A stretch of 64,000 bases of DNA from Echinarachnius parma (Eukaryota; Echinodermata; Echinoidea; Clypeasteroida; Echinarachniidae): assembly GCA_037951105.1 (NCBI GenBank), contig JBAMJV010008313.1, positions 81,757-145,756 of the forward strand. Direction: 5' to 3'. Shown here in pieces: positions 1-63,256 of this stretch. The position numbers were made by a program, and so were the translations under genes. Below the pieces are notes generated by a model. The model worked only from the letters and a program-made list of their open reading frames with translations. It did not search any database and was not told the origin of the DNA. How positions within the stretch are numbered: the first letter of the stretch is position 1; each line of letters opens with the position of its first letter.

Positions 1-1598
1 CTTAAAAGAGCTGCAAAAATAGGTTTTCATAACATTTTCTTTCAGTGTTGGTAAGAACATTACTTCAATTTATCAGATAAATATCTATTTCGGCATTTTC
101 GCTCTTTGTTCTGCTTCAGTGACTGTTTCATTTATAGTCATCTATATGTCACGCTGTTACCCTAAAAACAGGTATTTTTAATATTTCTGGAAAAATATCA
201 ATGGGAATGAAATTATTTTTTGTTTCTTCTTCATTCACCCATAGAGCTATATTATGGATGCTAAATAGCAGCATTATCTTTTACCACTAATAAATCTAAG
301 CAATATCAATTTGGTCACGCTGTTACTTTTTGGGTAACAGCGTGACGCAACCTACTCTTTTTTTGCAATATCTCAAGAATCGTTGGATGGATTCTGTTCA
401 AACCTTGTACAAGACATGTATTCAGAGGTATGGATTATCTGATACATTTTGGGGCCATGAGGTCAAAGGTCTAAGGTCACAGCTAATTAATATGCAAAAA
501 ATATATTATTCTCAAGATATTTCAAGAATCCTTGAAGGATGACATGATAATTAATACTGGTATGCGTTCAGTGAAGTAGATGACCTGATTATAGAATTTG
601 GTCATGGGGTCAAAGGTCAACAGGTCAAATTATTGTAGTTTATTTTTTATCTCACAAAAAAATGCCAGAATTAATGTTAGAAAGAGTACTGTAGATAAAA
701 GAAAATTCTATGAAAATGTTTGGAGCACAGGTCAAAGGTCACTCGGATAATTACCAATTCAAACACAAAAACTTACTGACATTGAAATCATGTTACATGT
801 AACAAATCACTTGTAGATATGCACTGTGCCGACATAAAATTAAACATTTGTATGCTAATTTGAGAAATAAGGTCAAAGGTCAGATGTCAAAGGTCTAATA
901 TTTCATTGTTGCAATTAAGTTTGTATTTTGGGTTTGATATTTGATGGTTCCTCAAACTAAATTCTGAAAAAGATAGAATTTCAGTTTTGTCCAAAAACAT
1001 TTTTGATCAATAGAGGGCGCTAGGCTGCAAATTTGTGTCATGCGAACCATCATTTCAGAGCATCTGGGTTATATTACCCATTCATCTAGTTCTGTATAGA
1101 TTCTGGATGACTACATCAAAATTATATAATCTTATTCATCTCATCAATATCTCCCATATATATAACATGTACAATTCAGAGGTCACGCTGTTACCGTCAC
1201 GATGTTACCGTGCACAGATACGTTTATGATATCATATTTACTATGAACATTGGATTTTTTCTACATTTTTATTTGGATGTTCTAGCTTGATGTCTAGTAC
1301 AAAGAATCAATGTGACAAAATTGCAAAATGTTCCTGTAGTTCACAGAGTTTGCTTAGTTCCTTACCATGTAAGAAACCCATGTCTTTTTGCCGTCACACT
1401 GTTACCGCAGATATTGATATTCATAATTCATAATTTAGTGGGAATTTTGATTTTCTTTCCTATTGTAAATAATTGGTAGGATAGTGGGAACAGATGCATA
1501 TCAAAATTTGGTTCTGGACATTTTTATTTTGTGAGTTATTTAGACTTTCATCGTGAGAAACACCCTCCGACCGTCACGCTGTTACCTTGGAATTGCCC
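1..1598. mobile_element. Right part of non-autonomous DNA transposon 'element A' with a GTCACGCTGTTACC array
   Basis: This AT-rich non-coding block ends in GGAATTGCCC at 1589-1598, the same end as the complete element at 49149-49935. Bases 1-83 also match 49361-49446 inside that element, so the left end probably lies outside the window. It carries seven copies of a 13-14 bp motif GTCACGCTGTTAC(C), at 149, 314, 333 (inverted), 1182, 1196, 1393 and 1573. Two copies differ in the core (GAT, ACT). The last copy abuts the inverted end. There is no protein-coding potential. Classification as a DNA transposon is inference from ends and relatives. Confidence 0.6.
313..346. repeat. Inverted pair of the GTCACGCTGTTACC motif (hairpin)
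   Basis: GGTCACGCTGTTAC is followed within about 6 bases by GGTAACAGCGTGAC, giving a 13-bp stem made from two oppositely oriented copies of the element A motif. Confidence 0.85.
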
Positions 1599-3102: not shown

Positions 3103-3870
3103 GGGCCATTCTTTGAAAAGTGAAACTTTTTCGGAAAAATTGAAGTTTTATTTTTCTGTAGTTTTGTTCCATTTTTGGAATGATCCATGTGTAAAGTTTC
3201 ATGAAATACATGATTTGAAGTTTAAAATGAAACTTTTTTACTCATTTGCATAAATTTACATATTTCAATATGTTTCTAATAATCATAATTCAGAAAATAA
3301 TCAAGATATCAAAAGGATAATTAGCAAGCTCATTCTTCTCACTTTCCTGTACAGGTTGATACCAACTTTGTAAAAATTCAACCTTTCATTCTTTTCTAAA
3401 CCCGATATTATAAAATTCCCATTTTTCCATTCATATTGTACATGTCACACACGTGACCACCCCAAAATGTCACACACGTGACCAGACGTTGCCACATAAT
3501 TAAGTACTATAAAAAACAACGGTTTGATATAATTCTCATTCATTGCTATTGTTGTACTTACAAATGTATAGTACTTCTCTGGTAATAAGATGAACATTAT
3601 AGCTATTCATATTTTAAAGAATTTTCCAAATGAAATTTAGTTATGAAAAAAGCGCTCCGTGCGAAGTCACACACGTGACCCATGCCATTTGACCTCTGAC
3701 ATTGAGTTACGTAATCCTTATAAAATCTTTTGTGTTAAGTTTCAAAGACTACACCATATTCAAGTCACATATGAAGTAAAAATCATTATAGTCTCATACT
3801 TACTGAAATATAAGCATCCCATTTCAAAATTTGTCATGTTTTGGGTCACACACGTGACCAAGAATGGCCC
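3103..3870. mobile_element. Complete non-autonomous DNA transposon 'element B' with a GTCACACACGTGACC array
   Basis: Inverted ends are GGGCCATTCTT (3103-3113) and AAGAATGGCCC (3860-3870). They are flanked by AAAA on both sides (3099-3102 and 3871-3874), a candidate 4-bp target duplication. Four copies of GTCACACACGTGACC(A) lie at 3444, 3469, 3666 and 3845, the last touching the right end. Length (768 bp) and layout match the element at 49149-49935, but the motif core differs. The AAAA duplication alone is weak because the flanks are A-rich. Confidence 0.65.
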
Positions 3871-14700: not shown

Positions 14701-17700
14701 TACTTTTATTTCAGAGTTGAATGGCATATATAACTGAGTATTTCACTCTCTTATAGAATGTTAGCATTTTATCAATATCTCTGTTTTTGTCGAGCCCACC
14801 GAGGTGGAGGTAGACTAAGGGATCCAAATTACATCCGTCTGTCCGTCCGTCGGTCCGTCCGTGACGCTTACAACAAAAATTTGAATAACTTTCTAACCCT
14901 GCATCTGTGTGTAACCAAACTTGATTGGTAGATGCCCTACATTGGCCTCCATGATTTCTTGGGGTCAAAGGTCAAATGAGGGTCATTGTGAAATTTTACC
15001 TGCAAGAGTCTATTAGGGTTGATAACTTTCCAACCCTGCATCCGTTTGTAACGTACCAAACTTGATTGGTAGGTGCCCTATATTGGCCTCCATGATATTC
15101 TGGGGTCAAAGGTCACATAAGTAGGTCAAAGGTCAAATGAGGGTCATTGTGAAATTATACCTGCAAGAGTCTATTAGGGTTGATAACTTTCCAACCCTGC
15201 ATCCGTTTGTAACGTACCAAACTTGATTGGTAGGTGCCCTATATTGGCCTCCATGATATACTGGGGTCAAAGGTCACATAAGTAGGTCAAAGGTCAAATG
15301 AGGGTCAATTGCGCGCAAGTGGGCAAGACACTTTATGGCTATCGCCTTGTTTCTGATTTGGTTCTTCTCTTGTTTATCTAGGTTGTTGATGTACCAGCAT
15401 CGGTTCAAGGATTCCTTCAACGTGGTAGACCTGGATCCCTATGGCAGTGCAGCTCAGTTCTTGGATCCAGCCGTCCAGGCCGTCAGGAATGGTGGACTTC
15501 TGTGTGTGACTTGTACGGACATGGCTGTTCTGTGCGGGAACCATGGACACGCTTGCTTTGCCAAATACGGAGCCATGGCTCTGCGATCAAAGTACTGTCT
15601 TGAAATGGTAAGTCTGCACTCTTCTATTCCCTATATAGGATGCTGAACTATTCTTTGTATTAAATGCTTACTGGCACAGCTGTACAATTAGGGATATGTA
15701 TGCTTTGGAAAGTAGTGAGCTACATGTATGGCTCTGCATAAGGAGCCCATTAAGTGATAACTTTCAAAGACAAATAACTTATTGAGACGTTCTGTTGATG
15801 TGTAGATTCATGGTAGCATATTAAGCTGATAATTAGGAAGTAACAATTTGAGGAGGCTATTCTTAAAATAGTAAGGGTTCTAAGTATGTTGGGGTTCTCT
15901 GTGTGAAATTTGCACTTTATTATCACCCGTCCAGGCTTTGTAGAAGGTTCCATATCTCACAGAGACCTAAGCCAAGGCTCGACACTCACGGTGGCCCGAT
16001 GGCCCGGGGCGAGTAAAAACAGCTGCCGGGCCAGCATATTCTAAAAATAAGTAATCTGGCTGGCCCGATCGGGCCGCTAAATATTCTGTTCAGCTACGAG
16101 TGAAAATGTCATTCATGTTTTGTATTACATCGCACATGTTTTTACTGCATTCGCACTACCAAAATCGGGGAAACAATTAATACAAAAAGTCGGGAGCGCA
16201 TATCAAAACACTCTCTTCAATTATCTACTTCAAAAACAAAATGCTGTTAGTTTTAGCAAACACACACCTTCCCTGGGAGTCTTTGCAACACGTAGAATAG
16301 AGGGAGGGTGTGCGTATCAGCGAAGCCCCTTCAACACATGCCCAGCTACCTGCTTTGCCCGCAATGGCTTTGAAAAAGGGATCAAGGAAAGGATCGAAAA
16401 ATCACATTTGGGAGAAATGAATGGACACCAAAATGATATATATCCATACCAAATATATCAAGCTTATATTTCATAGGTATGTTTGCATTTCATAATGTCT
16501 TTTTGTGACATTTCACATCGTGATTCTGAGAATTTTCGGCAAATTAAATCCACAGAACGAGGCTCCCGCTGGCAAGGTACTATGCCAGGAGTTGTGGCCG
16601 GCGAATGGGCTAGCTGTGGTGTCATCCATGGTGATTGAATTTGAGTTTGAACTTCGATTGAAATCACTTATCCAGTTTTTATTTCAACATCCATAACTTA
16701 TTTCTATCACACCTTTCTTTGCAATAAGTACATCCTTGTATTTCCCTCTATTTGTTTAGCTTTGTTTATCCTGTGAATTTATTTTTATTATCAAGATTTC
16801 AATCCATATTCATGATAATTGTCTTGTTCTTTTTCTCAGCGTAGATTTCATCAACTTCTAACAATTTGTTTGTTTCTGGTTATTGTTGTCTTTGTCGCTG
16901 TGTATTGCTTGCTGTCTTTAATCTCATTATGATGCTAATTCCTCTGAGATATTTACTTTCCATCATCATTATCATCATGATCATATCATTCAAGCGAATT
17001 TGTTATTTTTGTTCTCATCGTAGATTTGGGAGTAGCTCAAGATAGAATGTATCATAAACTAGTTCTAAAGACCTTTTCTGGCTATTGTAGTATTGTCTTT
17101 CTCTAATCCAATCTTTGCTTGCTTTTCCTTTTTGCCTCTTTCTTTTCTTATAATGATGTTGATTCCTTTTAGATTATGACTTCTATTTAATCTTCCTTCA
17201 TACTTGTCTTCTTGTCAAAATATCAAACTTTCAAATGTAAAATAAACTAAAAATGGTAAAAAGTAAACAGGAAAAATATGAAAACAGGCAGTTCGCATTT
17301 ATGTAACAGACTTGAATTAAGTTGTAAAGAAGTGCCTTGTGAATGCTTGGACGTGTAGATTGTAGGACTCTTTGGGAAAGGGAATTATAATTTTCCTTGT
17401 ATATTTCTTTAAATTCTTATATGAAGAAATAAACAGACATAGACACAAGTCATAGATCATAGTATTTGTTTAATTTTATTTCAAGTATATTTCATTTACC
17501 TCACAAAGAAGTAAATTTAGATAACTGTTGTGAGTTCATGACTTACATAAATCAACATACACGAAACTGTAAACATAAAGGAAGAGAGAAAGAAAAGTAG
17601 GCTTCCACAATAAGTTCATTACTACACAGATGTACTAAAACAAATGACAAACTTTACAAAGACTTTGCAAGTGGTTAAATTAGAATAAAATATTTAACAA

Positions 17701-20700
17701 CTTCATATTTGCAGGAAAACATAATATCGACCCCCTTTTTAAGAAAGTAAATGTTTTAATGTTTTTCTTTGTTTTTTCGGGCCAGTAAAATTATTTTCGG
17801 GCCAGTAAAATTTGAAAATTGAAGAATCTACTGGCCCGATAGGGCCAGTAAAAAAAAATGTGAGTGTGGAGCCCTGCCTAAGCAAATCAATGCAATTGGA
17901 ACATACTTCCAGTAATGTGTTTTTCTATGACAAAATCTTACAGAAATGTCTTTTTAACACATTGCTTACAGGAACCTGGTGGGTTGCGTACAAAGTCTAT
18001 GGGATTTCAGAACCTCGAAGGGAAAGGGTTAACCCAAACCTCCACACTAACATTTTGTTCTACTTGCCCGTTCGGGCAAGCAGAATCATGACTTTTCAAC
18101 TTTTACTTGCCCAAACAGAAAACTTACTTGCCAGCTTACTTATAGGTGAGATTTACTCGTACAGAATTACAGTATTCTCTCCTAGTTGAGCAAAAATTCA
18201 GTTGCCCTGTCAGGCAACCAAACTAGACCATTTATGAAATTTTACTTGCCAAACATCAGTTTTTACTTGCCCTGGGCAACAGGGCAAGTGCTAGTGTCGA
18301 GCCCTGGTTAACCCATTGCTTACAGGAACATGGTGGGCTATGTACTCTACAACGTTCATGGGTATTTCCGATTCTGGAAGGGATCAGATTAATATAGTGT
18401 AACTGTCTTTTCATCTTCCCCGTTCCAGGCACTACGGATTGTTCTGCAGTGCATAGAGACCCAGGCGAATCGCTACAACCGCTACATCGTTCCAGTCCTG
18501 TCCGTTGCTCTGGACTTCTATGTCAGGCTGTTTGTCCGAGTCCATGTCAGCCAATCCAAAGTCAAATATTCACCAAGGTGAGATGCAGAGCTTTGATTCT
18601 TTTGGGTGGGGTACGGTCTCTATGCTAATCCCTGGAAGCAAATGATTGAACGATGAAAATAAAGTCTCTATAATCGCTAATCTTTATAATCTTGTCAGTT
18701 GCTGTGGACTTCCATGTCAGGCTGTTTGTCCGAGTCCATGACCCCGTTGCAGAAAGATTTGCAATCGATTGTAAAGTTGCAATTAATTGCAAGTCAGAAA
18801 ATATGCTCATTTGAACCAATCAGATTTGCGCATTTAGTCAGTAGATCTGACTTGCAATTAATTGTAATGTTACAATCGATTGCATCTCTTTCTGCAACGG
18901 GGCCCAGGTCAGCCGATCCAAAGTCAAATATTCACTTAGGTGAATCTCTGATTCTTTAGGGTTGGATTCTATTTGTGATGTATTGCATTATTCTATGATT
19001 CTCTTGGATTCACTATAAAATATTGATGCCACTTGCAAAACTAGATGATTAAATAATTAATGTACAGAAATATTACTGTTCATTACACCTCCAGTATAAA
19101 TGAATGTGGTTAAGCATGGTATATGTTTTTAATGGTACAGACGTACAGTGTGAAGTGGAAAATTGTAATAATTTATTTGCATACTAATTTTATTTATATG
19201 TTGGTTTCTTTAATCATTCTCTTACAGCAAAAAAGCCCTGATATATCACTGCAGTGGATGTGGAAGCTACACCTTGCAAAAACTTGGAAAAGTAACTTTC
19301 AAAGACGGGTAAGATTTCAAACTTTCAATATCTTTTCTAATGAAAACAAATTATAATATTAGATTAAACTTTTTTTTCTTTCTAGTTCCAGATTTTGAAT
19401 TATTAGTTTCTGTCTGTTTGATGATTAAAAAGTAATATACAGTATTCATGTAAACAGAAAAAGAACTGAGTGAAACTTTCCACACTATTGATATCAGACC
19501 CTGGAAATGGACATATATATTTTGTCAGTTGATAACAAGTATTATTTATTCAAAATTTACCTGATGTTTTCTGATGTGCTATGTACAAAGTCTATGGGGA
19601 TTTCACAATCTTGAATGGGGGGGGGGGGGTATTTTTGTTACAATAATAATAATGTATGCAGTTCATGATGTGATGAGTGGTATGTATTTCTGTAGCCTAC
19701 TAAGCCTGTATCCTTTGACTGATATTTACTTTGCACACACTGATTCTTGTAATGTGAAAACTAAGGCTGAGTCGGTTTGGTCGGTCACACCGGATTCCGA
19801 CCGTCACCATCGGGTCCCGGTTTCGTTTTTTCGGAACCGGTGCCCGAATTTTTTTGTTTGTTTTTGTTTTTTATAAAATATCCGTGATGACTCATGCCTA
19901 GTGAAAACTGTCCCTTATTCATACCTCCTTTTCCTCTCAGCAACCCAAATCCCAACTTCCAGCCAGCAACAGGACCCCCTGTGGATCAACGCTGTGAGCA
20001 TTGTGGCTCTGTCTTCCACGTAAGTTGTACACACACACAAAAAAATAGAAAAACACATTTTGTGAAATAAGAAGTAAAAACACATTTTGTGAAAAACAAA
20101 AATAAAGACACATTTTCTTAATCATACATTGTTGACCTCATCCAAACCAAACTCACTTTTTATAAGCCAAATAAATGTTTGCTAAGTTAGAGGTCTTTTA
20201 TTATGCCTCCGTAACGAAGTTGCCAGAGGCATTATGTTTTCGGGTTGTCCGTTCGTCCGTACATACGTACGTCCGTCCGTCCGTCCGTCCGTCCGTCCGT
20301 ATACATTTTGTCCGTACGTCTCGTTATCGTGATCGCGTTATCTCAAGAATGGATTGACGGATGTTGACCAAACTTGGTACATGTATGTATCTTGGGGAGC
20401 CAATGAACTGATTAGATTTTGGGGTCATGACGTCAAAGGTCACAGGGCTCATTATATATGCAAAAATAGCTTGTGATCGCATTATCTCAAGAACCGATTG
20501 ACAGATTCTGCCCAAACTTGGTACATGTATGTATCTTGGGGAGCCAATAAACTGATTAGATTTTTGGGTCATGAGGTCAAAGGTCACATGGCTCATTATA
20601 TATATGTAAAAATAGCTTGTAATTTGAAATCTCAAGAACTGAATGTCAGATTTCAATCCAACTTGGTACCCGAGTGTATCTTAGGGAGCATTTGTAGTCA

Positions 20701-23700
20701 TTAGATTTTGGGGTCATGATGTCAAAGGTCAAGGTCACAGGACTCATTTTGTAAAAATATCTCAAGAATCAGTTGACCAATAACCATCAAACTTGGTACC
20801 TATAATTTGAATTTTGGGGAGCTAATAAACTAATAAAATGTTGGGGTCATGAGGGCAAAGGTCAAGGTCACTTATATATAGCTCATAATTGTGATATGTC
20901 AAGATCTGATAGACAGATTACCATCAAAATTGAATTGACAGAATTAATTAAGTGTATGTTAATTTGGGCTTGATATATATATAAATCGCGCAATGACGGA
21001 GGCATCATTTTCGACTGTGCGCAGTCGAAGATCCATCTAGTTTATATTTCTTGTTCTCTTTTTCTTATTTTCTATTGTATTTGTATCTGCATTATAAATG
21101 TGCATATTATTATAGTATTCGACTACTTATTCTGATTATTAGTAGTTTTGAATAACTTTGTAGAACTCTTTATTTTTAATGGACCCTGTTGGTCCTTATT
21201 CTCTTTTACTACAATATTTGTTTTCTTTTATTTCAATTTCCTAATTTCCCCATGTGTGCTTGTTTCTCCAAATTTTAGGTAATAATTGATCAAATATTTT
21301 ATTATGTAGTAAGTTTGTTTTGTTTGTTAAATTGTTTTTTTGTTCTGCTTTGCTTGACCAGGTAGGAGGTCCTATATGGGCAGACCCCATCCACGACACC
21401 ACCTTTGTGAAACGCATCATCTCACACATAGACTCCCACCCGGAGAGGTTCAAATATAAAGACAGGATGAAGGGCATGATGACCGTAATAAGTGAGGTGA
21501 GTGCTGACTGTATTACTTGTCGTTAGGTCAGGCAAACCTCTAGTAAAATGTCCCGCTTTCATCAGATTTTGTGAAGCATCTCTTTCTTGCTTATGTACGT
21601 GCACTGTGAGAGGTTCACTTTTTAAGATAAAAATGAAGAACATGATGACCGGTGTTACGTGAGGTGAGTTCTGCATGTATTACTTGTTGCTAGGTTAAGC
21701 AAGCCCATAAGGTGAGGTATAAATCAACTATAGGCAAAAAGCGGTATAAAAGACATCCTCATAGCTGCCAAGTCTCCCTGATTTTGCAGGAGACGCCCTG
21801 AAATTAGACCAAGATTGATGCATGATCAGATTTCATCCCATCAGCCAATCTCCCTGTTTAATGAAATAGTATTGTCCCTAAATCTTCCCGATTGTTGTTG
21901 TATTTCAATGTTGGTAGCTCTGTCAAAGGCCAATCAATGCTTTACAGCAGCTTAAGATTTCAGAGAGCCTTCAGGTACTTGACGACTTCTGCAAAAGGAG
22001 CTGATGCACACGTTTCGTCAAGGATAGAACCTCGTGAAAATATTTTGTTTGTGCTTCTCAGGGGTCGTAATGTAAAGAGTTGCACATTTAAAATTGTTCT
22101 TATTTTTCTTGTTTCTCAGGAGTTGCAAGACTGTCCACTTTATCACATCACAAGCAATCTCTGTCACGTTCTACACTGCGAGTGTCCCTCTCAAGAAAAG
22201 TTTCGGTCAGCCATCTTGAATGCCGGGTACCGCGTCTCCATTTCGCATTCCTCTGCGGAATCCATCAAGACTGATGCCCCACCTAGTGTTATCTGGGATA
22301 TTCTCAGGGAATGGGTAAGTCAAGTTTTCACACTAACTTTTTATCTACTTGCCTGTTTGGGCAAGTAAAATCATTTTCACATTTTACTTTTGTGAAACAA
22401 AAGTTAAATTAATGATGCGAAGTAGCTTGATTTGCCTGACAAATTTCGTACTTGTTTCTAGATGAGATTTATACGTAAGGAATTGCATTTCTGTTGTTCT
22501 TGAATAGAAATATTACTTGCCCAATCTGGCAGCCAAACTAAACTATTTATGATCATTATTTTATTTACTGGACATCATAGAATTTATTTAGTTAATTCGT
22601 TTATGTCTGTTGTGCTTATGAAAGCATCGTTATATTCCCCAACCAGGTGAAGGATCACCCAGTTAGTGAGAAGCTTTTGACAGCCAACAGTCCTGCAGCA
22701 ACCATCCTCGGCAAGAAACCAAGAACCCAGAACTTTTCTAGGGTCCTTTATAGACATTTTGCATGCTAAATTGCCTTGAACCCCTGGTGGTTTTTTTTTC
22801 ACTATTAATTTCTTTGTGACTTTTCTGATTAGGTGAAGGATCACCCAGCGAGTGAGAAGCGTCTTGTCAGCCACTCAGCCAATTAGTCTTGCAGTAAACA
22901 ATCCTTAGCAAGAAGCCAACCATCAAAGTCAACGTCTCAAAGTCTCGCCCCGTCACATATCTTTTGTTTGTATTTAAAAACAGATCAGATCTAATTCTCT
23001 GATAATTGTGACTAGAGTCAACTGTGGCACTCTGAGGGTTAAAGGTTGGTTTTGCTAATATGAAAGTGTTGTTATATTCCCCTACCAGGTGAAGGATCAC
23101 CCAGTGAGTGAGAAGCGTCTGTCGGCCAACAGTCCTGCAGCGACCATCCTCGGCAAGGAACCAACCATCAACGTGAACTTCCCAGTATCACCCTAACTCT
23201 TATAGATTTATTGTTTGCATTTAGGAACAAATCAGCAGATTTAATTCTATGATATTTGTGACATACCGTGCTTATGAAAGCATTGTTATCTTCCCCAATC
23301 AGGTCAAGGATCACCCAGTGAGTGAGAAGTGTCTGTCGGCCAACAGTCCTGCAGCAACCATCCTCAGCAAGGAGCCAACCATCAAAGTCAACTTCTAATC
23401 TCACCCCGACGCAGTCCCCAAGTCCAGGAACCTCGGCCGATTCATGGAGAACCAATACATTTTCTTGTGTCCCTTTTGTATGCTAAATTACAAATTCAAA
23501 TTACAAATTCTATTTGTAACTTTCCCAATCAGGTGAAAGATCACCCAGTGAGTGAGAAGCGTCTGTCGGCCAACAGTCCTGCAGCGACCATCCTCAGCAA
23601 GGAGCCAACCATCAAAGTGAACTTCCAGTCTCACCCCGACGCAGTCCCCAAGTCCAGGAACCTCGTCCGATTCCCGGAGAACCCAGAACCAAACTGGGGG

Positions 23701-47753: not shown

Positions 47754-48349
47754 GGCATCACCAAATGAAAATGAAAATTGCACGAAATTAATGCAAATTA
47801 TATTCTATGAGTCGGGACTGACCTAATGTTAGTGCTGTAACTGACCTTGATGATCGGATCGTTTGATCGGATCGGCAACATTTTATCGATCTTCGAAATC
47901 GGATCGATGATCGGGATCGGATGATAGGCTAAAAAAAAAAAAAAAAAAAAAATCTTCTTTTTTTTTTCTTTGGAAAATGATCCCCAAAAAACACATTTTG
48001 GGAATATAAATGAATACCAAAGCAACATATATCCATATTAATAAGCCCAAGGTAATCTTGTACGGGTATGCTTTCATTTCAAACTGATTACCTCTTCTTT
48101 TACAAAATTATACTCACGCCGATTCTGAGCTTAGTCCCATGTGATTAATTTGGCGTAACCTTTCAGAAACACATGGGACTAAGCTCAGAACCGGCGGGAG
48201 TAATTTTGTAAAAGGAGAGGTAATCAGTTTGAAATGAAAGCATACCCATACAAGATTACCTTGGGCTTATTCATATATGGATGTTGCTTTGGTATTCATT
48301 TATATTCCCAAAATATGTTTTTGGGGATCATTTTCCAAAGGAAAAAAAA

Positions 48350-49148: not shown

Positions 49149-49935
49149 GGGCAATTCCAAGAGCAAACATTGACATAACCACTGATTTTTCAAATTCGTT
49201 GTACCATAACAAATTTGGTATCAAATGAAACCTAAAAGATTGAACTTTCCAAAAATGCTTTTGTTTTTGAAAAAAAATATTGTAAACTATTATTTTATCG
49301 TTTATATATAGCATGAATTAATTTTCATTTATTTTCACAAAACATTCAATTAAATATTAAGCATAAAAGAACTGCGAAAAGGAGTTTTCATAAAATTTTA
49401 TTTCAGTGTTGATACTGATAGGATCATTGCTTCAATTTATCAGATACCGGTACATCTTTGCAAAAATCTGTGAGTTCTGTGACCTCACAAAGGTGATTTA
49501 GGTATTCAATTATAGACAAGGCAATGATGAATTGAATCCAAGTTGGATTTTGCGAAACGGGCCAGGTATAAGTGATCTAGACAACAAAACGTTGCGTCAC
49601 GGACATTACATTTTCAGCGCCACGGACATTACAGTTTGTCCGGAGGATTTGATTAATTGAAATATATATCTTTAGAGCACTCAAAAGACTGAAATTTTAA
49701 TTTGAAAAGGTACTTTGATTATCAGTCATCAAATTTGGTGTCCCATGTGTGGAGTTTCATGTATGGTTTCCGTTTCTCCTATAAGGAGACACCCGAGAAT
49801 TTAAAAAATCATGTGAACTGAAAGATATAATCAGGATCATGTTGTATGGAAAAATAATCCAGAAAAAATCAATAGGATTTTAAATAGAGCCAATTGTTTT
49901 TTTGAGTTCATGTCCACTTTTTCGTGGAATTGCCC
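49149..49935. mobile_element. Complete non-autonomous DNA transposon 'element D' with GTCACGGACATTACA motifs
   Basis: GGGCAATTCC at 49149-49158 is inverse to GGAATTGCCC at 49926-49935. ATAT flanks both ends (49145-49148, 49936-49939), a candidate 4-bp target duplication. Two motif copies lie at 49595-49610 and 49618-49633. Bases 49361-49446 match 1-83 of element A. It is 787 bp with no gene. The start of the recombinase exon follows 61 bases downstream. Confidence 0.7.
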
Positions 49936-50010
49936 ATATAAATATATATATCACATCAATATTTTCTAAAATGATTGCATTTTCTTCAACACAAAGGTGT
50001 AGCTGACAAG

Positions 50011-52173
50011 ATGAGTTGCCTTCCTTCTTCTGGAGATGCCAGCGTTGGGACACCCTCTGGACTAAAGGTAGAACCACCTGATCCAGTGTCACTGTCACCT
50101 GATCAAGTAGCAACACCTCACAAGAGCAGTTCCATTCATCTATCTGAGGAATCCAGAGATGTTGAGATCCCTGTAGTGAAGATGGAACCACCTGACCCCG
50201 TTTCACATGATCCAGTTGATCCACTGTCACATGACCAAGTGGCATACCAAACTATATCACTGGAGATCAAACCGGAGGATGATGACATGAGAAAAGGTAT
50301 GGTCAAATCACACTTCAGTAATCTGCAAACGTGTCAGAGAGTCAAAGCATCAATTGACATGGGGGAAAATGCAAATATGGAATTCCTGAGCCAGAATGAA
50401 CAGGAGAGCAACACTGAAAAGGAGTGTGTCAAAAAGCAGGGTAAACAAGCAAGAAATGAAAAGGCAGGAGTATCTGAAACTTACAAGAAACCATGCAGAT
50501 TTTGCATATTCTGCAACAAATATCAGTCAAAGTTGTCCGGCCACATTACCAACAAGCATAAGGACAACAACCGTGTACAAAGAGCATTATCACTTCCAAG
50601 AGATGAGAGAATATCTGCTTTCGATGTCTTCAAAAAGGAAGGAATTTTGCATGTAAATAAGCTTCAAGCTAGGCAAGATGATCCAAAATATGAGAGGGAG
50701 AGAAGTGTGCCAAATACTGAGGGAGAGTTGGTAACGTGTGGTGAGTGTCAAGGCTTTTATGCCAAGAAATACATGAAGAGACACAAGAAGGTTTGTCAGA
50801 GAAATACAGAATCGGCAACTATTTCGGCTGATGTGCCAGCCAACCTATTGCAAGCCAAAGATGAATACGGAGATGATTTTGTTCTTAATGTATTATCCAG
50901 GTTCAGGATAAATGATGATGCAGGGAAGCTATGTACTAAAGACCCATGCCTATTAGAAATAGGAAAAAGACTTTGGAGCAAGCAAAAAAAACAACAGGAC
51001 AAGCGGGTGGAGGTGAGAAAATCAGTAATGGCAGACATGCGACGTCTTGCATCATTATATATAGAGCTGAAGAATACTGAAGAAACAGTAGGGAACTTGC
51101 CTGTGAAGAAGGGAAATGTGTCGGATCTCTTTCAGAGATCAAATTTCCGGCACTTGGAAGAAGCAATAGATAAATTGACAACAAGAGGGGAGTCTGATAT
51201 GGGAGTAAAAGCAGGACTCAAACAGGCGTCGTTGTACCTTTTGAAGTCTGCATGCAAGATTGTGAAGGCTTTGTACTTGATGGATGATGATGATGAGGAA
51301 GCAGCTAATATTGACAAGTTCTTGGCTGTACTGGAACTGAGTCAAAATGCCATGTTTGGCGATGCCACTTACCTACTCAATAAGCAACAGCAAGAGAAGC
51401 TTAGACGACCTCAGGAACAACCAGAAGAAGAAGACATTGCAAAATTGAAAGAGCACACAGTAAAGAGGATGAGTGAACTTGCCCAGGATGAATTTTGTTT
51501 TCTTGATTCACATGGCTTCGTGGAATTGCGTGATTGTGTTGTAGCTAGGTTGACGCTATTCAATGCACGTCGAGGAGGGGAACCAAGCAAACTACCCCTT
51601 AGTAGCTGGTTAAATGCTTATAAGGGAGCTTGGCTCGATAAGTATCAGATGGACAACCTAGACCCCCTGGACAAAGCATTAGCCCACAAGCTAAAGGTTG
51701 GGTATCAAGCGGGTAAGGGACTTCACATTGTCCACATCCTCTTCCCTGAAGACACGCACATGGCATTAAGAAAACTTGCATCGAAAGAAGTCCGTCTAAA
51801 TGCTGGAGTGTCGGAAGATAACAACTACCTGTTCCCGGGCACAAATGGGTCGGATGCCCATGTTTCAGGATGGCATGCCGTTCACAGTGTATGCGAACAG
51901 CTAACACTTCTCAACAAGGAAGCTCTTACAGCAACCAAGAACCGACACCGAATTAGTGTGCTGTTTGCCTTGATGGACGTACCAGAGAACGAAAGGTCAT
52001 TCATCTTCAAGCATTTGGGTCACTCAGAGACAACGAATATGAATATCTATCAGGCACCACTGGAGGTGAAGGAGATCACTGTCGTGGGAAGGAGATTGGA
52101 GACAATGGATGCAGGTACAGTACCAGGTACGTTGTCTGATATTACTTGCAATTTTGGATTGCACAAAGCTTGA
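50011..52173 (+). CDS. Crypton-like tyrosine recombinase protein with two zinc fingers and SUMO motifs
   Basis: An intact frame of 720 codons starts at MSCLPSSGD. An acceptor-like ACACAAAG precedes it, and the frame is open upstream. Order: residues 1-95 acidic/proline-rich with three SUMO-consensus sites (LKVE, VKME, IKPE followed by acidic residues); a C2H2 finger at about 165-184 (CIFC...HITNKH); a C2HC finger at about 243-262 (CGEC...HKKVC); a charged linker; and a tyrosine recombinase domain at about 490-690. Catalytic positions visible are R520/521 (FNARRGGE), R645 in box II (T642 replaces the usual His), H671 (LGHS) and nucleophile Y680 (NIYQ). Such domains cut and rejoin DNA through a 3'-phosphotyrosine. 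The last 16 codons may be intron: GCAG|GTACAG (after 52114) and CCAG|GTACGT (after 52126) are donors. It could be a transposon protein or a domesticated gene. Confidence 0.8.
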   Translation: MSCLPSSGDASVGTPSGLKVEPPDPVSLSPDQVATPHKSSSIHLSEESRDVEIPVVKMEPPDPVSHDPVDPLSHDQVAYQTISLEIKPEDDDMRKGMVKSHFSNLQTCQRVKASIDMGENANMEFLSQNEQESNTEKECVKKQGKQARNEKAGVSETYKKPCRFCIFCNKYQSKLSGHITNKHKDNNRVQRALSLPRDERISAFDVFKKEGILHVNKLQARQDDPKYERERSVPNTEGELVTCGECQGFYAKKYMKRHKKVCQRNTESATISADVPANLLQAKDEYGDDFVLNVLSRFRINDDAGKLCTKDPCLLEIGKRLWSKQKKQQDKRVEVRKSVMADMRRLASLYIELKNTEETVGNLPVKKGNVSDLFQRSNFRHLEEAIDKLTTRGESDMGVKAGLKQASLYLLKSACKIVKALYLMDDDDEEAANIDKFLAVLELSQNAMFGDATYLLNKQQQEKLRRPQEQPEEEDIAKLKEHTVKRMSELAQDEFCFLDSHGFVELRDCVVARLTLFNARRGGEPSKLPLSSWLNAYKGAWLDKYQMDNLDPLDKALAHKLKVGYQAGKGLHIVHILFPEDTHMALRKLASKEVRLNAGVSEDNNYLFPGTNGSDAHVSGWHAVHSVCEQLTLLNKEALTATKNRHRISVLFALMDVPENERSFIFKHLGHSETTNMNIYQAPLEVKEITVVGRRLETMDAGTVPGTLSDITCNFGLHKA

Positions 52174-53654: not shown

Positions 53655-53865
53655 TTAAGTGCTGATATATGTTCTGGAGACACTTCAACTTTTTTTGGAA
53701 ACATATTTTTGTGAACTTGTTGATGGAATGGAATACCTTTCTTTCATAAGAATATTATTTTTGGGTGGTGGTATCCTTTAAAATTGGACATTCAGATCGT
53801 ATATCACATCAGTGTTTTCTAATATGATTTTGCATTTTCTTCAACACAAAGGTGTAGCTGACAAG

Positions 53866-56507
53866 ATGAGTTGCCTTCCTTCTTCTGGAGATACCAGCGT
53901 TGGGACACCCTCTGGACTAAAGGTAGAACCACCTGATCCAGTGTCACTGTCACCTGATCAAGTAGCAACACCTCACAAGAGCAGTTCCATTCATCTATCT
54001 GAGGAATCCAGAGATGTTGAGATCCCTGTAGTGAAGATGGAACCACCTGATCCACAGTCACATGATCCAGTTGATCCACTGTCACATGACCAAGTGGCAT
54101 ACCAAACTATATCACTGGAGATCAAACAGGAGGATGATGACATGATAGAAGGTATGGTCAAATCACACTTCAGTATTCTGCAAACGTGTCGGTGAAATTT
54201 TGATCAAATTTAAAAACTAGTTTTTATGCCTCCGCCAACGAAGTGGACAGAGGCAAATATGTTTTCCGGTTGTCCGTCCGTCCCATTTTTGTTATCGCGA
54301 TATCTCAAGAACCGATTGACGGATCAATTTAAACTTGGCATATTGCGGTGATAATGATCTGAGTAGATTTTAGATTTTGGCGGACATGAGGTGAGGTCGA
54401 GGTCACAGGGCACACTTATCATACCAAATTCATGTAAGATAATAAAGGGACAACGCAAATATGAATGCTGAAACCTGTATTATGGACTTTTTTGATGGGT
54501 TTAGATGCTTTTGATAGTTGTCCCGATGCTGATAATTGGCTTATCCTCATTTCGGGATGAGGCCTTTACACAGCTGAAGCCTTTATGCCAGGAAGTACAT
54601 TATTCATGTACTTAATTTAAGCCTGAATTTGGTCCATTGATCTTTTACAGGTTCCTTTCATATACTGTATTATTCTATCTTTCTTTCTACCAACAGAACA
54701 CGCCTGACACATTATTTTACAGGTTCCTTTCATATACTGTATTATGCTATCTTTCTTTCTACCCACTGAACACGCCTGACACGTTATTTTACAGGTTCCT
54801 TTCATATGCTGTATTATTCTATCTTTCTTTCTACCAACAGAACACGCCTGACACATTATTTTACAGGTTCCTTTCATATACTGTATTATTCTATCTTTCT
54901 TTCTACCCACCGAACACGCCTGACACGTTATTTTACAGGTTCCTTTCATATGCTGTATTATTCTATCTTTCTTTCTACCCACCGAACACGCCTGACACGT
55001 TATTTTACAGGTTCCTTTCATATACTGTATTATTCTATCTTTCTTTCTACCCACTGAACACGCCTGACACGTTATTTTACTGCGATAAGTTGAAGAAATG
55101 GCTGCCTCATGAGGGGATTGAAAGTGGTCCATAAAATAGATTATTTTCAGATATGATGACATAAATGGTACCCTGGGGTACCAAACGAATATCCGCCATT
55201 TTGTTTAATTCTTTATTTATTTTTTAGGGCTGTACCGGGGTATAGCGTGCATACTTGCGCACGCTGCACTGCATGCACAACGCAATACGGTTATGCTTCG
55301 AGTGGACACAAGATGGCGCTACACAACGCGGTACCCCGGGGTACCGCGTGTGTCATCATATTAGGAATATTCAGGAGGAAATAAATGACAGGAGTTATCC
55401 AGTAAGTCAAAATGCTAGGATTTCATTTCCCTTAGGCTTTAATATAAATGAGTTATGTTGGTTCCTATATATCTTATTATATACAGTTAATTTGCATTCA
55501 CTTGTTCTATTGCAGAAAACCCTGGTCACTGGATAGGTGAAAACAAGACTTTGGCTGGAAGGAGCGCTTCATCTTCAGATGTCGGAGAAGTGACAGGAAG
55601 TGAGTCCCTTCAGGAAGGGGAGACGGGTATAGGTAGCTCAAGAATGCATTGTTGCATAGTTGCTGAGAGTGCAACGGATGCTGACAGACCCTTCAAATGC
55701 ATGCTGTGTTCAGAGACATCCTATGATATGGTGGCTGAGGATCATGAGCGTGCCAAGGATGATGGCAGACCCAAGAAAATTGAAGAATCTTGTTTGACAT
55801 TTGAATCAAGTCGAGTTACTTCAAAGGAAGATGGCAGTTGCACCATTTGTAAAAAGGCTTGCACTCATAAGAGAACTCAAAGTGCTCATCTGAAGGGTCA
55901 GATTAGGACACAGGACAAACCTTTCAGTTGCAGCATTTGTAAAGTGGCTTTCACTCGTAAATCTAATCTGTCAGTACACTCAAGGATACATACAGGTGAA
56001 AAACCTTTCAGCTGCAGCATTTGTCAAAAAGGTTTCTCTCAGAGAAGTTATCTGAATTATCACATAAAAACACATACTGGTGAAAAACCTTTCAGTTGCA
56101 GCATATGTCAAAAGGGTTTCTCTCGCAGAAGTTCTCTGAATTATCACATGAAAACACATAATGGTGATAAACTCTTCAGTTGCAGCATTTGTGAAAAGGC
56201 TTTCTTTAAAAATTGTAATCTCACGGATCACATGAGAACACATACTGGTGAAAAACCTTTCAGTTGCAGCATTTGTAAAAAGGCTTTCTCTATGCAGCAT
56301 CATCTAAAGCATCACATGAATATACATACTGGTGAAAGACCTTTCAGTTGCAGCGTTTGTAAAAAGGCTTTCTCATGTAAAGATTATCTGAAGAGTCACA
56401 TGGCTATACATGCTTATGAAGGACTCATCCAATGCAACATTTGTAAAGAGTATTTTTCTCGGAAGGATCGTCTGAAGGATCACATGCTGACACATACTGG
56501 GGAATAG
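53866..56507 (+). CDS. C2H2 zinc finger protein, two exons
   Basis: Exon 1 (53866-54151, from MSCLPSSGD; exon border likely 53852) is a near-copy of the first 95 codons of the recombinase gene, with SUMO-type sites LKVE, VKME and IKQE. It ends GAAG|GTATGG in phase 1. Exon 2 (55516-56507) follows CTATTGCAG and completes the codon, giving 425 residues. Exon 2 has an atypical Cys/His segment (CMLC), a degenerate finger whose last His is Gln, then seven regular C2H2 fingers (CSIC...H...H) with TGEKPF linkers, most conserved between fingers 2 and 6. It is probably a nuclear sequence-specific regulator, and SUMO sites would favour repression. Exon 1 could instead be an internal exon of one large transcript with the recombinase (both borders phase 1). 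Confidence 0.8.
54220..54425 (+). repeat. Fragment of the TGACCT/GTCCGTCC dispersed repeat
   Basis: TATGCCTCCGCCAACGAAGT head with its inverse, GTCCGTCCGTCC, then one unit with GACATGAGGTGAGGTCGAGG. It lies in the zinc finger gene's intron. Confidence 0.8.
54644..55080. repeat. 72-bp tandem repeat, six units
   Basis: TTTACAGGTTCCTTTCATAT recurs every 72 bases. Because 72 is divisible by 3, both strands show long open frames (YRFLSY..., CQACSVGRKK...) that are artefacts. Each unit contains pyrimidine-rich stretches ending in CAG and a CAGGTT, so decoy splice sites are possible. Confidence 0.93.
55150..55365. mobile_element. Foldback element with GGTACC-rich arms
   Basis: ATATGATGACAT...GGTACCCTGGGGTACC at the left faces GGTACCCCGGGGTACC...GTGTCATCATAT at the right. 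It ends about 150 bases before the zinc finger exon. Confidence 0.75.
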
Positions 56508-60690: not shown

Positions 60691-61518
60691 ACTTACACAA
60701 AAAAATTGTTGTGAGATAATGAAAACTGACAGTCAAATTTGAAAGAACATACAATTTTAATGACAGAATAAACTTTATTTGATTAAAATCGGTTCAGAAA
60801 CGGCTGAACTATCCATAAATATATTTTTATTCAAAAGTTTCTTCACCAGGGAACATTTTGACTTTTTAGACAAATTTAGACAAATGGTTAGACTACTTTG
60901 AAAACAAATCTAAATAGGTTTTTAAACAGTTGTTGATATCTCTATTGAATCATTATTTTAACAAAACATTCCCAAGTCGAAATTCCCATAGAACCTAAAC
61001 CCATTGAAACCCATAGACCCATAGGCCTATGGGTTTTCAATAGGGAAAATGGAACATGGGACCAATAGAAAACGAAATGGGTTTCTATGGGTTTCTATTG
61101 GACCCATAGAAATTCTCATAGGATTCCCATAGGATTCCCATAGAATTCCCATAGAAATTCCCATAGAATTCCCATAGAATTCCCATAGAAATCTCGCATA
61201 GGAATTTCCCGTTGACACTTCCAATAAAGGTATATCAATTAAATTCTCCTTTAGAGAATCATTAAATGATAATGATAATTCATACTTATATTTTCCTTAT
61301 CAACCTCTTCAGACAGTGCAATAGGGCAAGCAAGGCATTGCCTCTTGTTGAAGAGAGTAAAGAATTGAATTTAAAGCTGAACAATACATTGAGGTATATG
61401 TATTTGCAGTTAAAATACTTTTCCTTGGTTAGTACAATATTCTATCATATTTATATTGTTTTCTGGAAATATTAATTCCCATCTAGGAATTGAAAATGTG
61501 GTGAATAAATTGATTATA

Positions 61519-62834
61519 GGCTCAAAACCACTAATTATGTACAACTGAAAAGTCAGAAAATGTCAAAAATAAAGTTCTTGCTAAACGTTTGATTTTAATG
61601 CCAATCTAAAGTGCATACTTGGTAGTATATACTCCGAGAAAATGAGCACGTAATGTTACTGTGCAAGAAATGTGTGCTTCATTTTGATAAAAAGGTGTAA
61701 CATACGTTACCATCAACATTTCACATGTTAGCTAGTTAGTTTCAAAGTTGTTAACTGAATGTTACAACCATGAAAAAAAAACAATGAAGTGTTAATAAAA
61801 CCACTAAAACATATTTTGTGAACATCCACCTAGTCAGGTGTCCGTTAACGATTTCCAAAGATATGTAATTTGGCCGTAACGTATGTTTCAAATTGGTCAC
61901 GTATGTTACATTTAGTGTTGTTTGAATACAATTTTGGCCTTGAAAATGATTGCTAAGCTCACCCTTAACCACATATAGATGGCGTTAACCAGTTTGCTAT
62001 CAATTTAGATAGTTATTTATCCCACACACATTTTTTTACACCTGGTAACGTATGTTACATCACCTGGTAACGTATGTTACATCACCTGGTAACGTATGTT
62101 ACATCATTTGGTTGATTAAGCGACATTTAGTTGAACTTAATTTTCATTTTTTGTGTGATATCAATCTACTTCATTGGCCTGAACTCCAGTAGAGTAATTT
62201 ACATCATAGTGGTTACCTATATTTAAAATTCGTGGTAACGTATGTTACACCTCTTAAATCTACTATTTTATCCCGTCTCTTTCTTATATTCCCAGTCACA
62301 TTTCTTTTGTATCTTGACTTTTAAATATGTTTTTACTTGTATGCCATGTTCTCATCATTAGAAAAATAAGATAACTGTACAGATGTGAGCATCTAAGCAT
62401 ATCCCTTTATTTAGTAAGATAATGGTAACGTAGGTTTCACTAGATTTGGCGACACATTTCCAATGGCCATCAACATTTTAAATAAAGTGGGATCATAACA
62501 TTTTGTATTATGTTTCATAGAACACTGTGCTGCTGTCGTAAAACCGCACTTATTTTGCTCCTGTGTACTCTTATTTTTTTACAAACCTGGAAAAACTGAA
62601 CGATTTTGTCTTGGGGACATGGGGTTTTTGATACCTCGGCCATATTCTATCCCCTGTCAATTGTTTATTTTACTTTCAATCACTTTGAATTTATGGTTAC
62701 TTTTACGAGAAGGACCCTCACTATCAAGTAAAAGTACAATTTAACTGGTGTAAAGTTAAATCTCTTCTCTAGAGGACCAGGATCACTGGAGACACACTTT
62801 TTCACTAATGGTGCATATTTAGTGGTTTTGGGCC
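61519..62834. mobile_element. Complete non-autonomous DNA transposon 'element C' with a GGTAACGTATGTTACA array
   Basis: GGCTCAAAACCACTAA (61519) is inverse to TTAGTGGTTTTGGGCC (ends 62834) with one mismatch. TATA flanks both sides (61515-61518, 62835-62838). Eight copies of the 16-mer lie at 61696 (inverted), 61875, 61895, 62044, 62066, 62088, 62234 and 62424. Three of these are in tandem with 22-bp spacing. It is AT-rich and non-coding. Confidence 0.8.
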
Positions 62835-62963
62835 TATATATTATTTCAATAAAATACACACCATAAAAAGTGAGTATGCGTGTTAAACAAATAACAAATA
62901 CATAAACATCATATTTTGTTGCATGAATGATATGCATGAGTCTTGCATGAATATGCAAATTTT

Positions 62964-63245
62964 CTATGGGTCTGTTGGTTTCTATGGGTTCTATGGGTCC
63001 TATGGGTTTCTATGGGTCCTATGGGTTTCTATGGGTCCTATACAAGTATCTATGGGTGTGGGTTTCTATGGGTCCTGTGACCTATGGGTCCTATGGGTTT
63101 CTTTGGGTTTCTATGGGTCCTATGGGTTTCTATGGGTCCCATGGGTTTCTATGGGTTTTATTTTCTGGGTTTCTGTTGGTCCCATAGAAACCCATAGGAT
63201 TTTCCTATGGGTTTTCTGTGGGTTTCTATGGGTTTCTATGGGAAT
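62964..63245. repeat. TATGGGTTTC/TATGGGTCC minisatellite
   Basis: About 25 units of 9-11 bases with CTATGGG in common. Glycine/tyrosine-rich frames across it are artefacts. Confidence 0.93.
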
Positions 63246-63256
63246 TTCGACTTGGG

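Follow-up and report, generated by a model that had tools for sequence, protein, structure and literature searches.

Family-specific arrays of a short motif as candidate transposase recognition sites in DNA transposons of the echinoid Echinarachnius parma

Four transposon-like elements, here named E1 to E4, lie within a 64,000-nucleotide stretch of the Echinarachnius parma genome (contig JBAMJV010008313.1, positions 81,757 to 145,756; hereafter the window), and each carries repeated copies of its own version of a 13-14 bp motif. We consider it rather likely, from sequence comparison, that these arrays act in cis as recognition sites for a group of DNA transposons encoding a DDD-type transposase. 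Several described systems provide the background. VANDAL elements are plant elements with a Mutator-like transposase, and the subterminal sites of Hermes/hAT, piggyBat and the P element are located close to the ends. In these latter systems, according to the passages cited here, internal sites beyond the terminal inverted repeats (TIRs) aid assembly of the transpososome (PMC10368747, PMC11707139, PMC7776569). The VANC proteins of Arabidopsis are described as binding short, family-specific motifs that multiply in the non-coding DNA of their own elements (PMC5735166). Sola elements, which are metazoan, are outlined as having a DDD transposase, a 4-bp target-site duplication (TSD), a size of mostly 2-9 kb and variable TIRs starting from 11 bp (PMC10741241).

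By analogy, the VANC/VANDAL system appears closest to the E. parma elements. That is, both have many short motif copies in non-coding DNA whose wording differs between related families, such family-specific arrays being clear at six of the ten E. parma transposase loci discussed below. As summarised in the cited source, the VANDAL motifs are read by an element-encoded protein, multiply in tandem and act on DNA methylation, whereas those of E. parma are mostly dispersed at recurrent distances from the element ends (hereafter the ruler), and a reader, likely the transposase, is proposed. The DDD transposase, the 4-bp duplication and the size within 2-9 kb agree with Sola1, Sola2 and Sola3, as compared by description only; however, the portion of that description cited here mentions no arrays on a ruler. 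Compared with the subterminal sites above, the present sites extend to about 1 kb from the end, spaced by roughly 150-200 bp, with up to 12 copies and a wording private to each subfamily. Kolobok and KolobokP elements, according to part of one account (PMC9587614), likewise occur in marine invertebrates and have 5'-RR ends and short TIRs, with TSDs of 3-5 bp in KolobokP. Kolobok proper and piggyBac, in contrast, duplicate TTAA, whereas the TSDs observed here are varied; and neither the long terminal direct repeats (450 or 660 bp) nor the His-Me nuclease given for KolobokP in that account was noticed here, no search having been aimed at them. KolobokP identity, considered for its habitat and TSD length, was set aside. 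Such arrays were not described in the titles and abstract openings consulted on subterminal sites, spacing, co-evolution and Sola, which is not proof of absence, and the motif strings searched as literal text had no match in the papers searched. Viral and prokaryote sequence collections scanned with the patterns gave no match, as expected for an animal genome.

The elements and their motif sites are arranged in the window as follows.

1..1598, +, E1: copy cut at the window edge, of a ~1810-bp non-autonomous family; TIR GGGCAATTCCAAG; 7 motif sites
148..160, +, E1 motif GTCACGCTGTTAC
314..326, +, E1 motif
334..346, -, E1 motif
1182..1194, +, E1 motif
1196..1208, +, E1 motif, 1 mismatch
1393..1405, +, E1 motif, 1 mismatch
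1573..1585, +, E1 motif, centre ~20 bp from the element end
3103..3870, +, E2: complete, 768 bp, non-autonomous; TIR GGGCCATTCTT; TSD AAAA
3444..3457, +, E2 motif GTCACACACGTGAC
3469..3482, +, E2 motif
3666..3679, +, E2 motif
3845..3858, +, E2 motif
49149..49935, +, E3: short copy; TIR GGGCAATTCCA; TSD ATAT (self-complementary, ambiguous); one motif doublet kept
49596..49609, +, E3 motif GTCACGGACATTAC
49619..49632, +, E3 motif, 1 mismatch
61519..62834, +, E4: complete, 1316 bp, non-autonomous; TIR GGCTCAAAACCACTAA / TTAGTGGTTTTGGGCC; TSD TATA
61697..61710, -, E4 motif GTAACGTATGTTAC
61876..61889, +, E4 motif, 1 mismatch
61896..61909, +, E4 motif, 1 mismatch
62045..62058, +, E4 motif, first of the 22-bp triplet
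62067..62080, +, E4 motif, second of the triplet
62089..62102, +, E4 motif, third of the triplet
62235..62248, +, E4 motif
62425..62438, +, E4 motif, 2 mismatches

An initial annotation of the window had reported motif arrays in four elements, with eight copies in E4, three of them at 22-bp spacing. The counts bear this out: seven sites in E1 (five exact, two with one mismatch), four in E2 (all exact), two in E3 (one exact, one with one mismatch) and eight in E4 (five exact, including the reverse site at 61697, two with one mismatch and one with two). The inverted GGGC/GGC ends that it had described were also recovered for E2, E3 and E4. The window contains seven occurrences of GTNAC-N3-GTNAC and ten of GTNAC-N4-GTNAC, all 17 within E1, E2 or E4; in 100 dinucleotide shuffles the two patterns together average 0.9 occurrences and never exceed 4. 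The E3 doublet of GTCACGGACATTAC is a related form outside these 17. E1 and E3 have 83 bp in common at 79.5% identity, and blastn found no alignable interior of E2 or E4 with the other window elements. The common descent that had been proposed is supported by the ends, the ruler and the transposase. E1 is truncated by the window start and lacks about 212 bp, judged by site position; among nine full E1 copies, six measure 1809-1814 bp and the remaining three 1772, 2011 and 4120 bp. A recent insert at ~365-900 in E1 was considered and dropped, since the window copy plus the missing 212 bp amounts to ~1810 bp, as in those six. The window E3 retains the doublet only, and seven-site arrays stand at other E3-motif places (e.g. 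C58:126149-127425). A scan of the window with Rfam gave no match at the gathering threshold.

Genome-wide, exact matches were counted on both strands of the 1.2-Gb assembly, with each pattern read backwards as control. The motif clusters that had been anticipated are present, each motif being far above its control: 713 versus 32 for E4, 6021 versus 24 for E2, 2749 versus 114 for E1 and 5471 versus 2 for E3. The element copies studied were taken among the matches listed (~100 places per motif) and are hence motif-selected. For E2, 20 loci were fetched; an exact search found both ends in 19, and 18 of these 19 show an exact 4-bp duplication of varied sequence. For E1, 15 loci yielded ten end pairs, nine of them with a 4-bp duplication and the tenth pairing an unrelated left end, while an end was not found in the other five. 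Seven of the ten E4-type rows, including two longer relatives and the window copy, carry a 4-bp duplication. The duplicated sequences in E1, E2 and E4-type copies are varied (e.g. CATT, ATAG, TATA, TGTG, CGCT). The ends, which are short, inverted and begin with GG wherever they were found, and the duplications claimed earlier thus recur, and although TATA and ATAT are self-complementary and ambiguous in the window, the genome copies settle the matter. E4 aligned in 15 of the 16 loci L013-L028, in pieces of 82-97% identity, L024 having the E4 motif without E4, and the number of 22-bp units varies among copies (one, two or three). The 4120-bp E1 copy (L069) has a single frame of 93 amino acids (aa) and none longer. 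The window observation is therefore real, and larger in extent than first noted.

Four long loci with the E4 motif (L009-L012) have in common an element of 5956 bp (1113-7068 in L010) that is 97.5-99.8% identical among them; its ends, GGGTCAAAACCAGTAAAT and GGGTTTGAGCC, resemble those of E4. L010 contains an uninterrupted open reading frame (ORF) of 874 aa flanked by 12 motif sites; the frame is interrupted in L009 and L012. For the 874-aa protein, neither Pfam (above cut-off) nor the PDB sequences gave a match, and a Pfam scan of nine transposases at E 0.01 returned no family (transposase ORFs only, other element ORFs being outside the scan). AlphaFold2 gave a pLDDT of 38.9 from the single sequence; a usable prediction came from a nine-sequence core alignment, and the product was counted as a DDD-type transposase with an RNase H-like fold. 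A genome search with the L010 protein (52 of 131 candidates scored) gave at least 54 matches; among the matches listed are a second subfamily, ~38% identical and with open frames of 843 aa, and several further open frames of 27-33% identity. Subfamily cores are 24-49% identical to one another. Ten transposase loci were examined: L010, eight from the genome search and a broken ninth (L088). The autonomous-looking elements measure 5956 (L010), 6342 (L080) and 5279 bp (L087). The L010 ends were defined by alignment; the TIR/TSD search found no believable pair for L010 or L082-L086 (the L084 match being the motif itself), nor any pair for L088. For L080, L081 and L087 the TSD was built into the search condition, so that it is not independent evidence there. 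The first 11 bases of the L087 ends, GGGCAATTCCATAA, are as in E1 and E3; the motif is different. One E1 copy (C23:70919-72676; L044, L066) adjoins fragmentary sequence related to the transposase described here.

Wherever an array was found, the motif goes with the transposase subfamily, as the initial annotation had led us to expect. The six loci with a clear array have motifs that differ between subfamilies; besides L010, these are L080 (831 aa from the ATG; ACAGATACGTTACC, 11 sites), L084 (GTCCCGGTGTTAC, six sites), L086 (GTAACGGAATTAC, four exact sites plus one), L087 (GTTACGGACGTACA, nine sites with at most two mismatches) and the broken L088 (GTTACGGGTGTTAC, three sites). Most elements have 4-12 copies, with three in L088 and two in the window E3, and in autonomous-looking relatives the arrays stand on both sides of the uninterrupted transposase ORF. 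Several motifs are near-palindromic, and motif-pair scores between subfamilies are 7.1-11.4 over all pairs, compared with 6.7 (standard deviation 0.9) for random 14-mers. The suggestion that constant arms enclose a variable core holds for the core, which does change, but one arm also changes between subfamilies, as seen in L080. The strongest link between motif and transposase is in the L080 subfamily, whose motif has 97 exact copies in the genome (2 in the control). Among the matches listed, the 14 loci of that transposase subfamily account for 91 of these copies at distances of at most 4 kb, and six (C358, C1640, C3374, C6245) are not near any listed transposase match; a further locus at 37% identity (C5516) is without the exact motif. 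At L083 and L085, the transposase loci are flanked by long tandem repeats with GTNAC-like words (periods of 592 bp in L083, ~222 and 273-302 bp in L085), possibly representing growth from array to satellite.

When site centres are measured from the element ends (with L024, L080, E1 and E2 turned round), a ruler with a step of ~150-200 bp emerges that is largely common across elements. In L010, centres lie at 198, 557, 579 and 953 on the left and 403, 594, 750, 764, 1121 and 1143 on the right, and in L024, a different 3.8-kb element with the L010 motif, at 198, 556, 578 and 938, and 404, 596, 749, 764, 1117, 1137 and 1227. Comparable positions are occupied in E4 (left 185, 364, 384, 533, 555, 577; right 403, 593) and L080 (left 209, 598, 1012; right 407, 599, 767, 781, 1173, 1194). 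In the other branch, the centres are at 20, 188, 376, 390, 412 and 371, 526, 547, 560 for L087, at 20, 200, 398, 412 and 366, 532, 552 for E1, and at 19, 198, 395, 420 for E2. At C58 and C161, the steps within the E3-motif arrays are 179, 189 and 23 on one side and 153 and 25 on the other, and the window E3 falls off this ruler. Relative to random placement, L010 and L024 agree at four of four and three of three positions within 4 bp (p 5e-5 each, the floor of the test) and L010 and E4 at two of two in the right arm (p 7e-4); further agreements are L010 with L080, right arm (three of four within 8 bp, p 0.002), E1 with L087, one arm (three of three within 6 bp, p 4e-4), and E1 with E2 (three of four within 4 bp, p 8e-4), all p values being descriptive because tolerances were chosen after the positions had been seen. 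By comparison with a z of 26 for the spacer alignment of a true family pair, spacers gave z between -0.6 and 1.2 in four of the five L010 versus L024 pieces, -1.0 and 1.1 for E1 versus E2, and 0.8 for E4 versus L024. That is, seven of 11 pieces are below z 2, suggesting that the ruler outlives alignable sequence in several, though not all, comparisons.

The motif edges are sharp. Across eight elements with 4-12 sites each, mean majority frequency is 0.95-1.00 in the motif and 0.42-0.62 in the 14-bp flanks, the latter standing without a random baseline, and this low flank agreement suggests that the sites are mostly unlike copies of a longer unit. The concerted spread raised initially as an option, if taken to proceed through copying of such a unit, was mostly not seen, since similarity usually ends at the motif edges; the exceptions are local doublets or triplets of 14-25 bp, the 22-bp unit of E4 and two L080 sites whose flanks are identical.

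Binding sites for the element's own protein would be expected to keep fixed positions between free spacers, to have sharp edges and to go with one transposase subfamily, as observed here. The sites are thus probably read by that protein, with the transposase as the most likely reader, and sites and protein would change together; the earlier reading of sites for a binding protein that co-diversifies with each subfamily, by common descent, is supported to this extent. The transposase may read the sites via its N-terminal region, which is variable and basic, and may do so as a dimer given the several near-palindromic motifs, and protein bound along several hundred bp from each end could assemble both ends. 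As the step is close to the nucleosome repeat, sites might be placed in linkers or on loops. Non-autonomous elements of the E1-E4 type would keep sites and ruler because they need recognition in trans, and the private wording may stop subfamilies mobilising one another. A shift in protein specificity would come first, with the dispersed sites following. A bolder extension, which we put forward tentatively and would not bet on, is a two-layer address, i.e. a group-wide ruler of about one nucleosome per step, legible in outline to all members of the group, plus a private 13-14 bp word at each mark, read by the own transposase only. Sub-lineages would split when the word is replaced at every mark and the ruler stays as it is, families in one genome would be mutually insulated, and the transpososome would wrap or thread linker DNA over ~1 kb per end.

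A number of observations weigh against reading the arrays as transposase recognition sites. Foldseek alone gave a weak fold match, the best being to an Argonaute. No intact partner of E1, E2 or E3 was found, the link consisting of the ends (E1 and E3 with L087) and the ruler, and TSDs are absent in L009, L010 and L011, three of the ten E4-type rows. Four of the ten transposase loci have no clear array: L081 shows none even with its ends found, the GTNAC-like words of L083 and L085 are confined to the long tandem repeats, and L082 has only two palindromic pairs of CGTAACATGACA. The ruler fails or is marginal in some comparisons (L010 with L080, left arm, one of three within 12 bp, p 0.17; E2 with L087, one of four, p 0.35; the other arm of E1 with L087, two of four within 4 bp, p 0.044, or three of four within 8 bp, 0.017), and the post hoc tolerances and the missing flank baseline noted above count here as well. 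Spacers are not always random either (E4 versus L010, z 7.9, 2.7 and 2.05; one L010 versus L024 piece, 3.9), and the two L080 sites with identical flanks indicate that longer units are sometimes copied. Finally, within families the motif is conserved only weakly above background: in 20 motif-chosen E2 copies, it reaches 0.987 compared with 0.951 for the rest, the first site being at 0.95, and in 13 E4 copies its mean of 0.932 is below the 0.955 of the rest, because one site varies (0.65, the seven sites being otherwise at 0.95-1.00).

The chief rival to transposase recognition is a VANC-like regulatory or anti-silencing role, in which an element protein would bind the dispersed non-coding motifs and open chromatin without assembling the ends. 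Subterminal sites usually reach less far inward than the 1.1-1.5 kb over which the present sites extend into the element, and tandem gain and loss of the E4 22-bp unit would also suit such a role, as would a wording that differs between related elements, described for VANC targets in the cited part of PMC5735166. However, the L010 element has no other frame above 149 aa (stop-to-stop list from 90 aa; the L080 list covers ATG frames of at least 300 aa only), though it might encode a second protein, and the nine transposases scanned, as opposed to other element ORFs, contain no Pfam family and hence no VANC-type domain. Furthermore, a ruler counted from the ends and sites kept in non-coding relatives fit recognition for mobilisation, and we regard the regulatory role as rather unlikely. 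Recognition by host DNA-binding proteins, for instance expanding zinc-finger proteins, with the private wording arising from an arms race, would suit fast motif change, and the window has a C2H2 zinc-finger ORF (55551-56507); yet loss of host-recognised sites would then be expected, instead of many exact copies and up to 12 sites on a ruler, which makes this improbable. We give very little credence to selfish nuclease sites or a recombination signal, as proposed for the KolobokP His-Me endonuclease: KolobokP, with its TSDs of 3-5 bp and short inverted ends, is reported from several marine phyla including echinoderms, and I-PpoI-type sites are semi-palindromic, but the transposase ORFs (other ORFs being outside the scan) match no Pfam family above cut-off, nuclease or other, and such arrays were not seen in the cited text of the KolobokP account (PMC9587614). 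Functionless hitch-hiking of the motifs as ordinary sequence of young elements, to which the youth of the copies (~95% column identity in E2, >97% in L010 copies) and the only slightly raised motif conservation would be congenial, is equally hard to credit given repeated copies within single elements with mostly unrelated flanks, positions kept across elements whose spacers mostly do not align, and the association of motif with transposase subfamily.

Some other features of the window were recorded. An ORF of 732 aa (49975-52173) has no Pfam match; its C-terminal part presumably resembles a Crypton-type tyrosine recombinase, its first 300 bp recur at 53830-54129 with 98% identity, and the end of E3 lies ~40 bp upstream. 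The zinc-finger ORF mentioned above is 318 aa long (zf-H2C2_2, E 1.3e-44), with a 72-bp tandem array nearby at 54643-55080. E4 is enclosed in a 2286-bp stretch (60971-63256) whose inverted ends, CCCAAGTCGAAATTCCCATAGAA, match perfectly over 23 bp; no convincing TSD was seen, tandem repeats of the CCCATAGAA type flank both sides, and this is perhaps a nested element. Repeats of 144-161 bp with AGGTCAAAGGTCA-like words, which we take to have the form of a nuclear-receptor DR1 site, are located at 365-900, 2199-2800, 14963-15307 and 20329-20871, one piece lying in E1. A nested inverted repeat (foldback) at 47995-48314 has GATCGGATCGGCA-like words on either side (47.7-47.9 and 48.4-48.5 kb).

At least nine versions of the motif coexist in one genome, six of them next to an identifiable transposase gene and several on a comparable ruler. 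It is an open question how specificity changes in a DNA-binding enzyme that depends on many sites simultaneously, and a system in which site wording shifts between subfamilies but row spacing is often retained offers a handle on how enzyme and target change together. The motif series would provide a natural set for working out which residues read each base, and lets one ask whether nucleosomes set the site spacing. In practical terms, thousands of non-coding repeats could be sorted by the transposase able to move them.
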